NCBI GenBank assembly: GCA_014800945.1
Contig: JAAVFD010000034.1
Span: forward strand, 62,001 to 126,000
Source of the DNA: Barnesiella sp.
Lineage (GTDB): Bacteria > Bacteroidota > Bacteroidia > Bacteroidales > Muribaculaceae
Direction: 5' to 3'
DNA length: 64,000 bases
The notes under the pieces were generated by a model, which saw only the letters and a program-made list of their open reading frames with translations, was not told the origin of the DNA and did no database searches. This document shows positions 22,728-24,444 of this stretch, in pieces. Position numbers and translations under genes: made by a program. Position 1 is the first letter of the stretch; each line of letters begins with the position of its first letter.

Positions 22728-23213
22728 TTAATAATTTATATCAGATATTCTGTTGAACATAATAAGATTCCCATAAATATTTGCTGCAAATTTATATTCA
22801 GACTTAATGTGTTTAATATAATTTATATAGTCTGTAGTATTAGGGGTTAATTTGCTGAAATCAGTATTCTCATTTATCTCTCTTCCATAAAAATCAGTAA
22901 GAGAAGCATAAATCACCTCCATACTTAGTGGATAGTAAGGCGCTACAACACCATATTGGCTAGGTGGGATATTAAGCTCTCGTAAATCATTGCTCATAGC
23001 ATTAATACTTTCACTATTAATCCAAAAGTGATAGTATTCAACACTGAACTTCCCATCGCCAGAAAGATTAAGTTCTACACCTTCAGCATTAGCTTTATAT
23101 ACTTCTTTTTCTGGTTCATCGTCATCATCGCTACAGCTAGTGAAAGCCATTGCCATAATGACACACAGGGCTACAGTAACCAGCGACTGTAGATGTAGTA
23201 GTTTGTGTTTCAT
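22728..23213 (-). CDS. Lipoprotein of unknown function
   Basis: 161 residues. The signal peptide ends in a lipobox (IMAMAFTSC), followed by an acidic SDDDDEPEKE linker, which in Bacteroidetes favours export to the outer surface. The rest (FSVEYYHFWINSESINAMSNDLRELN ... shown by YYHFWINSESIN) matches no family I know. The start chosen is the ATG at 23213; an in-frame GTG 24 bp upstream would only lengthen the signal peptide with a repeated MKHK. A large structured RNA ends about 35 bp upstream and may be its 5' leader. AT-rich surroundings and the neighbouring toxin-antitoxin pair suggest acquired DNA. Confidence 0.72.
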   Translation of the reverse strand: MKHKLLHLQSLVTVALCVIMAMAFTSCSDDDDEPEKEVYKANAEGVELNLSGDGKFSVEYYHFWINSESINAMSNDLRELNIPPSQYGVVAPYYPLSMEVIYASLTDFYGREINENTDFSKLTPNTTDYINYIKHIKSEYKFAANIYGNLIMFNRISDINY

Positions 23214-23249
23214 TGTAAAACAATATTTGTGCTTCACAATCCCTATAAA

Positions 23250-23530
23250 GCGGTTGAGAATCGGATATAGAAAAGGTGTGGGATTGTACTCTGCATATCT
23301 CTTTTAGTAGGCTTCTCGCATTGCCTTAGATAGTGGATAAACAGCGAACCCACACCGAGAAGCTATATAGATATCCCAAAAGGGGTAAGTATATGCTACC
23401 GATGTAGGCGTTATCTGCTCTTATCTTACTATCTATTAGCGAATTTTGCGAGAATTTACTAAAAGAAGATAATTCAAATAACACCTTTTCAGATGAATGA
23501 GCCAACTCTTCGGCTCTATTTTTCAACCGC
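23250..23530 (-). ncRNA. Large structured RNA or 5' leader element upstream of the lipoprotein gene
   Basis: Nested long-range helices cover the whole interval: 23250-23257 with 23523-23530 (8 bp); 23270-23279 with 23481-23490 (10 bp, perfect); 23301-23309 with 23457-23465, extendable with one bulge; 23313-23320 with 23447-23454 (8 bp); 23327-23334 with 23428-23435 (8 bp); 23336-23340 with 23421-23425. A large asymmetric internal loop (about 10 against 20 nt) lies between the second and third helices, and a local hairpin (GAGCC/GGCTC) sits at 23499-23516. The minus strand is preferred because a perfect -7 box TAACTTTG ends at 23530, so both RNA ends would pair. The segment GGTGTGGG (RNA of 23350-23357) could compete for the same 3' partner, hinting at a switch. 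No family assigned; a 6S-like hairpin or a cis-regulatory leader are the options. Confidence 0.65.
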
Positions 23531-23537
23531 AAAGTTA
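23530..23537 (-). promoter_or_regulatory. -7 box for the structured RNA
   Basis: The minus strand reads TAACTTTG, a full match to the Bacteroidetes -7 consensus, exactly at the 5' end of the predicted RNA fold. No TTTG is seen at the -33 position. Confidence 0.5.
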
Positions 23538-23772: not shown

Positions 23773-24069
23773 ATGAGAATAATATCTGCAAGGACTATAC
23801 GGCTGTATTACGAGGCTCATCCCGAGTCAAAATCAGCTCTGCAAGATTGGTTTAAAAAGGTTGAGGCGGCTGAGTGGAGTGACTTTAGCGATATGCGGAG
23901 GACATTTAATAGTGTTGACTATGTGGGTAATCAGCATTATGTGTTTAATATAAAGGGAAATGATTTCAGACTTGTGGCTGTAGTGAAGTTTACCGTACAT
24001 TTTGTTTTGATACGGTTTATTGGTACACACAGTGAATATGATAAGATAAAAGATATCGCAAATATTTAA
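23773..24069 (+). CDS. higB: HigB-type toxin (mRNA interferase)
   Basis: 98 residues, RelE/HigB superfamily toxin expected to cut mRNA on the ribosome. Visible family features are the N-terminal MRIISARTIRLYYEAHPES, the central DFRLVAVVKF strand and the C-terminal FIGTHSEYDKI, whose His and Tyr are the usual catalytic region. The antitoxin gene follows after 9 bp, and the toxin-first order is the hallmark of higBA modules. Moderate AT content and isolation between a terminator and a lipoprotein gene fit an accessory module. Confidence 0.93.
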   Translation: MRIISARTIRLYYEAHPESKSALQDWFKKVEAAEWSDFSDMRRTFNSVDYVGNQHYVFNIKGNDFRLVAVVKFTVHFVLIRFIGTHSEYDKIKDIANI

Positions 24070-24078
24070 AATAGAGAA

Positions 24079-24444
24079 ATGGTAAGGATAGAAAATGAGG
24101 CGCAATACATGGGTGCGCTGAAAAGGGTAGAGGATCTTATGCTAAAGTTGTCGGATGATACTCCAAAGGAAGATCCAGAAATGATAGAACTTGTTCTTTT
24201 AGGAAATCTCGTAGCCGATTATGAGGAGGAGCATTATCCTATCGGTGAGCCTTCACTTATAGATGTAATCAAGCTCAGAATGTATGAGATGGGTTTGAAT
24301 CAAGTAGCATTGGCAAAGTTGATAGGAGTTAGCCCATCGCGCGTGTGTGATTATCTGTCGGGCAAAAGTGAGCCGACACTTAAAGTGGGTCGAGTTATCA
24401 GCAAAAAATTAAACATAGACCCGGCGATAGTTTTAGGCGTGTAA
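24079..24444 (+). CDS. higA: HigA-type antitoxin, XRE-family HTH
   Basis: 121 residues. The C-terminal half is a lambda-repressor-like helix-turn-helix (LNQVALAKLIGVSPSRVCDYLSG), and the N-terminal half (about 1-60) should bind and mask HigB. Such antitoxins also repress their own operon; the promoter at 23718-23748 would be the target. A perfect palindromic terminator follows. Confidence 0.93.
   Translation: MVRIENEAQYMGALKRVEDLMLKLSDDTPKEDPEMIELVLLGNLVADYEEEHYPIGEPSLIDVIKLRMYEMGLNQVALAKLIGVSPSRVCDYLSGKSEPTLKVGRVISKKLNIDPAIVLGV

Follow-up and report, generated by a model that had tools for sequence, protein, structure and literature searches.

A large folded RNA is encoded, in one copy, on the minus strand of the window (the whole 64,000-nt stretch of Barnesiella sp. 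DNA that was analysed). It probably represents a new class of leader RNA that acts in cis, is built as a strand-exchange switch, and heads assorted accessory genes of the Bacteroidales. Four strands of this RNA, A to D, can pair in two mutually exclusive ways, A:B + C:D or A:D + B:C, and the comparison of homologous copies revealed that each of the two pairings is preserved. The window copy consists of the following parts, in the order of the RNA.

23530..23537, minus strand: predicted -7 box TAACTTTG, of the sigma-ABfr type TAnnTTTG
23499..23516, minus strand: 5' hairpin P0, GAGCC-GAAGAGUU-GGCUC, past the presumed transcription start; seen by eye in many homologues
23273..23487, minus strand: structured RNA core, matching models R1 and R2 over their entire length
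23477..23487, minus strand: strand A AAGGUGUUAUU, partner of B or D
23466..23472, minus strand: local stem P2, 5' side UUAUCUU, pairing with 23427-23421
23457..23463, minus strand: inter-domain helix K3, 5' side UUUAGUA (mutual-information scan and covariation)
23447..23454, minus strand: kissing loop K1, 5' side UUCUCGCA (covariation)
23428..23435, minus strand: inter-domain helix K2, 5' side UAGAUAGU, complementary over 8 nt in the window copy
23421..23427, minus strand: local stem P2, 3' side AAGAUAA (covariation)
23407..23416, minus strand: strand B AGAUAACGCC, partner of A or C
23349..23356, minus strand: strand C GGUGUGGG, partner of B or D
23335..23342, minus strand: local stem P3, 5' side GUUUAUCC, with a partner near 23301-23296 that is weak in the window copy
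23327..23334, minus strand: inter-domain helix K2, 3' side ACUAUCUA (covariation)
23313..23320, minus strand: kissing loop K1, 3' side UGCGAGAA, within the SL3 hairpin AGGC...GCCU (covariation)
23303..23309, minus strand: inter-domain helix K3, 3' side UACUAAA (mutual-information scan and covariation)
23280..23289, minus strand: linker GUACAAUCCC, pairing with the leader loop 23243-23236 over 8 bp (ACAAUCCC:GGGAUUGU)
23273..23279, minus strand: strand D ACACCUU, then a U-rich run; partner of C (terminator-like) or A
23231..23251, minus strand: leader hairpin GCUUU-AUAGGGAUUGU-GAAGC, whose loop is complementary to the linker (3' pseudoknot); it ends 17 nt before the ATG
22728..23213, minus strand: lipoprotein gene of 161 aa, lipobox TSC/SDDDD by eye, ATG at 23213, 59 nt past the core

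A folded RNA and its homologues

The stretch 23250-23537 had been described in an earlier note as a structured RNA, and folding confirmed this: the minus strand reached -105.1 kcal/mol against -60.8 ± 4.9 for shuffled sequences (z = -9.1), and none of 200 shuffles was as low. The plus strand folded comparably (z = -8.6), so that folding energy by itself cannot assign the strand, and since both strands fold equally well, a mobile miniature element or DNA hairpin was considered first. The minus strand was identified as the RNA strand from the side of the promoter box, the scores of model R2, and the excess of G-U pairs. R2 gave 180.5 bits on the minus strand against 27.1 on the plus strand, and R1 gave 191.1 bits for the core, where the window copy is among the sequences used to build both models. 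Among 70 aligned copies, G-U cells numbered 385 against 106 A-C cells, with G-U:A-C ratios of 45:1 in P3, 76:7 in P2, 97:8 in A:B, 75:33 in B:C, 17:4 in A:D, and 16:0 in C:D; no such excess was found in K1 (1:3), K2 (50:43), or K3 (8:7). The G-U excess in the local helices, together with the promoter box and the distance to the ATG, led to the rejection of a mobile miniature element or DNA hairpin. No blastn match of the window copy was found in phages or plasmids, and two patterns had no match in viral contigs.

The perfect -7 box that the earlier note had reported on the minus strand was found at 23537-23530, and the location upstream of a lipoprotein gene was likewise borne out. As to its extent, the element is real but continues beyond the stretch first proposed, into the small hairpin 23251-23231 that precedes the ATG. 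Every NCBIfam match of the window lipoprotein was below the cut-off. Two small genes of 98 aa and 121 aa (23773-24444, plus strand) are divergent from the RNA promoter; the product of the former had no NCBIfam match and resembles a HigB-type toxin by eye, and that of the latter had weak matches, below the cut-off, to HTH repressors or antitoxins.

Further copies, for which the earlier note had proposed a homology search, were plentiful. Of 61 relatives searched at the DNA level, 9 gave matches, and the genome of the window itself had two copies. Model R1, which was built from eight homologues and comprises 216 positions in two local hairpin domains, matched, within the family, 147 of 247 genomes in 27 of 30 genera (E <= 1e-3) and, within the order, 43 of 393 genomes (E <= 1e-4). 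The broader model R2, built from 70 copies, detected copies within the order in 94 of the 393 genomes, representing 50 of 207 genera, when five candidates were scored per genome; in a class sample of 149 genomes it matched four, namely the window's genome, a second member of its order, and two genomes from other orders. With fuller scoring, R2 matched 25 of 39 relatives and revealed 14 copies in the window's genome; within the genus, 22 of 24 genomes were matched, with 0 to 22 copies per genome, and in other families 3 of 15.

A pattern scan of named contigs yielded 57 stretches, of which R1 confirmed 56. These contigs include Muribaculaceae, Duncaniella, and Barnesiella sp. WM24 as well as Parabacteroides gordonii, P. 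distasonis, P. chinchillae, and P. acidifaciens. The pattern was also present in records titled Staphylococcus sp. (L171), a title that is probably wrong, and Eubacterium sp. (L170), where R1 did not confirm the pattern match. One copy (L016, 115-309 and 2077-2150) is apparently interrupted by about 1.8 kb. In another locus (L083), two copies of different subfamilies lie back to back, at 1057-1298 on the minus strand and 1556-1769 on the plus strand; one heads a 119-aa lipoprotein frame and the other only a 42-aa frame.

The earlier note could not assign the RNA to a named family, and a covariance-model scan with Rfam 15 bears this out. The whole window gave 0 matches at gathering scores, and the surroundings of the element gave only four chance-level matches at E values up to 10. 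In 16 homologous loci, the scan found only three tRNAs and one DUF805b RNA (RF02914; L134, 3158-3192), which starts 77 nt behind a copy. No description of such an RNA was found in the open-access literature searched.

Covariation of two exclusive pairings

Strand A resembles strand C and strand B resembles strand D, and hence the four strands can swap partners. In alignment A5 (70 matches from 69 sources, made with R1), whose copies are related sequences so that cell counts exceed independent events, 87.9% of cells were paired in conformer I (A:D + B:C, with P2, P3, SL3, and the kissing helices) and 90.7% in conformer II (A:B + C:D). Covariation was 0.438 for conformer I, compared with 0.214 after shuffling of the partners and no more than 0.107 after sliding, and 0.464 for conformer II, compared with 0.216 and at most 0.106, respectively. 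P2, P3, and K1-K3 jointly gave 0.606 against 0.235 (shuffled) and at most 0.140 (slid). The test for compensatory changes that the earlier note had suggested thus revealed abundant covariation, and its proposed refutation by lack of covariation fails.

Among the 70 copies, A:B was paired in 98.5% of cells, A:D in 97.7%, and C:D in 99.8%, the last with changes on both sides at four of six pairs. The four-pair core of B:C was paired in 96.8% of cells and its outer part in 64-94%. P2 was paired in 96.4% of cells, with both-sided changes at all seven pairs, and P3 in 95.9-97.7%. K1 was paired in 97.5% of cells over seven pairs, though its letters vary in dozens of copies, and showed both-sided exchanges at three pairs in 22-33 copies. 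K3 was paired in 89.1% of cells over four pairs and 74.8% over the two outer pairs. The weakest helix was K2, with 66-71% of aligned cells paired and up to six pair types per pair.

An unguided mutual-information scan gave a K3 pair as its top column pair, and this helix had not been drawn beforehand. The top 60 column pairs of the scan comprised 21 within named helices, at least one from each, and 39 that are not helix pairs, many of which join columns of the same helices. R1's structure does not contain A:D, B:C, K1, K2, or K3; their support is therefore independent of model fitting. A second alignment of 45 rows (A7), which was fitted to R2, overlaps A5 in copies, and includes two weak wrong-strand matches, repeated the picture with a covariation of 0.613 against 0.269. 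The crossed pairings P2a:P3b + P2b:P3a were hardly supported (0.275 against 0.251).

Taken together, covariation among the copies strongly supports two hairpin domains, kissing helices between them, a leader pseudoknot, and an alternative pairing of four strands. The five to six helices reported at the outset are not simply nested: local hairpins and inter-domain kissing helices also covary. The minimum-energy fold, one long nested rod and also the picture given by the earlier note, was rejected as incomplete, since P2, P3, A:B, and C:D covary and the crossed alternatives hardly do so.

The two stretches that had been said to compete for 23270-23285 were identified as strand C (23356-23349) and strand A (23487-23481, AAGGUGU), both of which can pair with strand D (23279-23273). 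Both pairings are conserved at the percentages given above, and this conservation of mutually exclusive helices among the homologues is consistent with the switch that the earlier note had considered possible. Its statement that no clear terminator lies before the gene is only partly right, as the C:D helix followed by the U-run looks like a terminator. The G+C-rich C:D stem with a U-run directly behind it has, as a sequence, the form of an attenuator, and 100 of 105 distinct copies have at least five T among the 7 nt at the end of the core. The U-run after strand D can also pair with the run of A residues in strand A, and need not be a terminator.

Folding energies were calculated for the same 70 copies. 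In a nested-only model, most copies fold as a rod, with mean pair probabilities of 0.87 for A:D, 0.95 for K1, 0.82 for K3, and 0.47 for K2, and of 0-0.02 for A:B, B:C, C:D, P2, and P3. When P2 and P3 were forced, A:B + C:D was lower in energy than A:D + B:C in 70 of 70 copies, by a median of 22.7 kcal/mol. These pseudoknot-free energies, forced and free, disagree and hence do not decide the balance of the states. Because of this conflict, it is plausible that the two-hairpin state would form first, followed by docking and strand exchange.

The identity of the four strands could also serve folding alone. In that reading, the leader would be a fold that binds a protein or affects the ribosome and would act on translation or RNA stability only, the alternative pairings being a mobile four-way junction used in folding. 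We regard this as unlikely, as all four complementarities are kept in 96.8-99.8% of cells, which exceeds the needs of a single fold; the position of the 3' pseudoknot hairpin, 17 nt before the ATG in the window copy, and the lack of a ligand-related gene theme among the matches listed for the downstream genes speak in its favour.

Promoter box, start codon, and linker pseudoknot

The sequence TAnnTTTG, which we take to be the -7 box consensus of the sigma-ABfr-type promoter of Bacteroidota, was found in 98 of the 105 distinct copies, at 41-93 nt upstream of the core, compared with 9.3 expected from shuffles; none of 98 control windows contained it. The motif AG[AC]G occurred in the 5' hairpin region of 80 of 98 copies against 40.3 expected, and was unpaired in 49 predicted folds. 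By eye, a block like TAGCCCCACCAATAACATTTTTT lies directly upstream of the -7 box in many copies (e.g., L079, L081, L017, and L097), and is possibly a shared activator element or -33 element.

A start codon was located for 100 of the 105 copies, one of which was TTG. When the ATG nearest to 57 nt was taken, it lay 48-72 nt downstream of the core in 95 of 105 copies, compared with 270 of 1990 random places (14%) under the same rule. Without this rule, the first ATG followed by at least 60 codons lay at 48-72 nt in 76 of 105 copies. The element therefore sits, as expected of a cis-acting leader, between a predicted promoter and the first start codon, and its secondary structure is conserved with compensatory changes.

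The linker that immediately precedes strand D shows complementarity to the loop of the small leader hairpin ahead of the ATG. In the 105 distinct copies, taken from 125 matches, the longest Watson-Crick match between linker and loop had a mean of 5.96 nt, against 4.83 ± 0.10 when partners were shuffled and a maximum mean of 5.10 in 200 shuffles. Besides the pairing in the window copy, examples were CAAUCCUC:GAGGAUUG, GAAUCCUC:GAGGAUUC, GUUCCC:GGGAAC, and AUAAUCCC:GGGAUUAU; 12 copies had a match of only 3 or 4 nt. The exclusive structures and the linker-loop pairing before the ATG resemble a riboswitch as a sequence pattern only.

The promoter box before nearly all copies, and the likeness of C:D with its U-run to an intrinsic terminator, would also suit a trans-acting small RNA that ends at C:D, in which case the gene behind would be reached by read-through and would not be the target. 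Such an RNA is improbable here, given that an ATG is placed 48-72 nt behind 95 of the 105 copies and that the linker's partner loop is located past the U-run, before the ATG, and would be missing from an RNA terminated there.

The mechanism of a cis-acting switch may be proposed as follows. Each copy would be transcribed from its own promoter up to the start codon of the accessory gene, giving an RNA of about 310 nt in the window. The two quasi-repeated hairpin domains, A-P2-B and C-P3-D, would dock through K1, K2, and K3. In the A:B + C:D state, the closing helix C:D and the U-run behind it would act like an intrinsic terminator, ending transcription and limiting read-through. In the A:D + B:C state, presumably the ON state, strand A would capture strand D, the terminator helix would be lost, and the linker, once released, could pair with the leader loop immediately ahead of the ATG. 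The choice of state in the cell, made in response to a putative signal, would most likely set the amount of the downstream message (attenuation) and/or its translation.

Cargo genes and comparison with known systems

Of 100 distinct first downstream proteins, 92 were scanned against Pfam, PADLOC, and NCBIfam. Pfam matches included BspA-type LRR_5 (9) and TerB (7), and weak matches (E <= 0.01) included DUF4972 (8) and PLCC lipoprotein (7), with 39 families matched in all. Later genes of the same runs were diverse (122 scanned of 148; Pfam and PADLOC), and no common pathway was found among the matches listed for the 92 first and 122 later genes. PADLOC matches were scattered, each with no more than two members, and included a single weak match (E = 8.7e-4) to Drt5, presumably a reverse-transcriptase system; a retron or self-splicing intron was set aside on these scans. 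Other copies in the window's genome head, by eye, a lipoprotein, a BspA-type, and a glycosyltransferase gene among others.

The accessory genes behind related copies often differ. Among 2137 locus pairs that have 700 nt or more on either side, which are not independent of each other, flank homology was found in 50, of which 17 were homologous upstream only, 28 downstream only, and 5 on both sides. Alignments (E <= 1e-10) reached at least 250 nt upstream of the core in 16 pairs, and of these alignments 13 ended at most 54 nt past the core, one ended at +111, and two ran through the gene; L125/L157, L085/L179, and L098/L100 of these pairs count as homologous on both sides under the looser flank rule. 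At one locus found in five genomes (L079, L097, L169, L194, and L161), the upstream flank and the RNA are conserved, the upstream homology stops 4-47 nt past the core, and the genes behind differ.

One-sided homology of this kind, with different genes behind the five-genome locus, could also come from an integron-like recombination system in which the element is a DNA attachment site for gene cassettes, and in 5 of 99 loci the gene closest upstream encodes a small tyrosine recombinase. This is very improbable, however, because the strand-specific G-U excess indicates selection on RNA, no repeat recurs between successive genes in the four loci examined, and the candidate hairpins, 53 nt long, are limited to 3 of 105 loci and lie upstream of the RNA as well. 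An integron attI site with a cassette array was accordingly not supported, given the lack of an intergenic site in those four loci and the rarity of the hairpin. Nor did an integrase accompany the RNA regularly: Phage_integrase matched 5 of the 99 upstream genes, and the recombinase has an RNA nearby in 4 of 12 places, all of them among the five most similar. We read the RNA instead as a control head on cargo genes that are exchanged via ordinary recombination.

Several observations on the flanks are recorded here. Some of the nearest upstream genes of the 99 loci look mobile-element-like, with four matches each to DUF3871 and RadC besides the integrases. A 195-aa tyrosine recombinase consisting of the catalytic domain only lies upstream of the RNA in L227, L228, L229, and L230, and also in L157, in genomes from three families. 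Because it has the RNA within about 1.5 kb in only the four places mentioned, it was not taken as an obligate partner; its more distant relatives precede other cargo, which in L234 is, by eye, a type I restriction methylase gene. The 53-nt hairpin (ACGTACCTTTTT...AAAAAGGTACGT) has six copies in L079, L161, and L169, inside and outside gene runs, and is perhaps a REP-like element.

Riboswitches and attenuators exchange terminator and antiterminator helices within a 5' leader. The element resembles them in its predicted own promoter, its exclusive helices, one with a U-run, and the start codon behind. It differs in having no known ligand or leader peptide, in its four-strand exchange between two kissing hairpins with a pseudoknot near the start codon, and in occurring many times in a genome, ahead of unrelated genes. 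6S RNA is a long imperfect hairpin, stand-alone and present in one or two copies per genome. The nested fold of the element is also a long imperfect hairpin, as in 6S RNA (RF00013) and 6S-Flavo (RF01685), but it has no Rfam match, occurs in up to 22 copies per genome, heads protein genes, and is pseudoknotted. The analogy to 6S RNA drawn in the earlier note thus does not fit, the copies being numerous and nearly all directly before a gene start. UpxY/NusG-type antitermination allows conditional read-through of 5' leaders in Bacteroides capsule loci. Conditional read-through of a 5' leader is likewise proposed for the element; no NusG family was found among the matches listed (the 25 commonest) for first, later, and upstream genes.

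Bacteroidales-1 (RF01693) and Bacteroides-1 (RF01694) are structured RNAs of Bacteroidales (Weinberg 2010, PMC2864571), whereas the element gave no Rfam 15 match to either, even at a permissive threshold. FopS of B. thetaiotaomicron is a multicopy Bacteroidales sRNA family with sigma-ABfr promoters, composed of a single-stranded 5' stretch and a terminator hairpin and acting in trans on susC mRNAs (PMC11697453). The element is similar in being multicopy in Bacteroidales with predicted sigma-ABfr-type promoter boxes, and different in being folded throughout, with no single-stranded 5' seed.

A wider reading may be offered tentatively, namely that the RNA works by branch migration across the order: docked hairpins would swap strands, dissolve the terminator, and rewire the pseudoknot, forming a shared head on many surface and accessory genes that are unrelated and exchangeable. 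If this were true, newly acquired cargo genes would fall under a shared signal. If the assignment to a new leader class is right, a many-copy structured leader RNA of gut Bacteroidales has been missing from the RNA catalogue, and it heads lipoprotein, BspA-type, and other accessory genes of unexplained regulation. The pairing pattern makes the strand-exchange switch directly testable, and identifying its signal would place these unrelated genes in one regulatory context.
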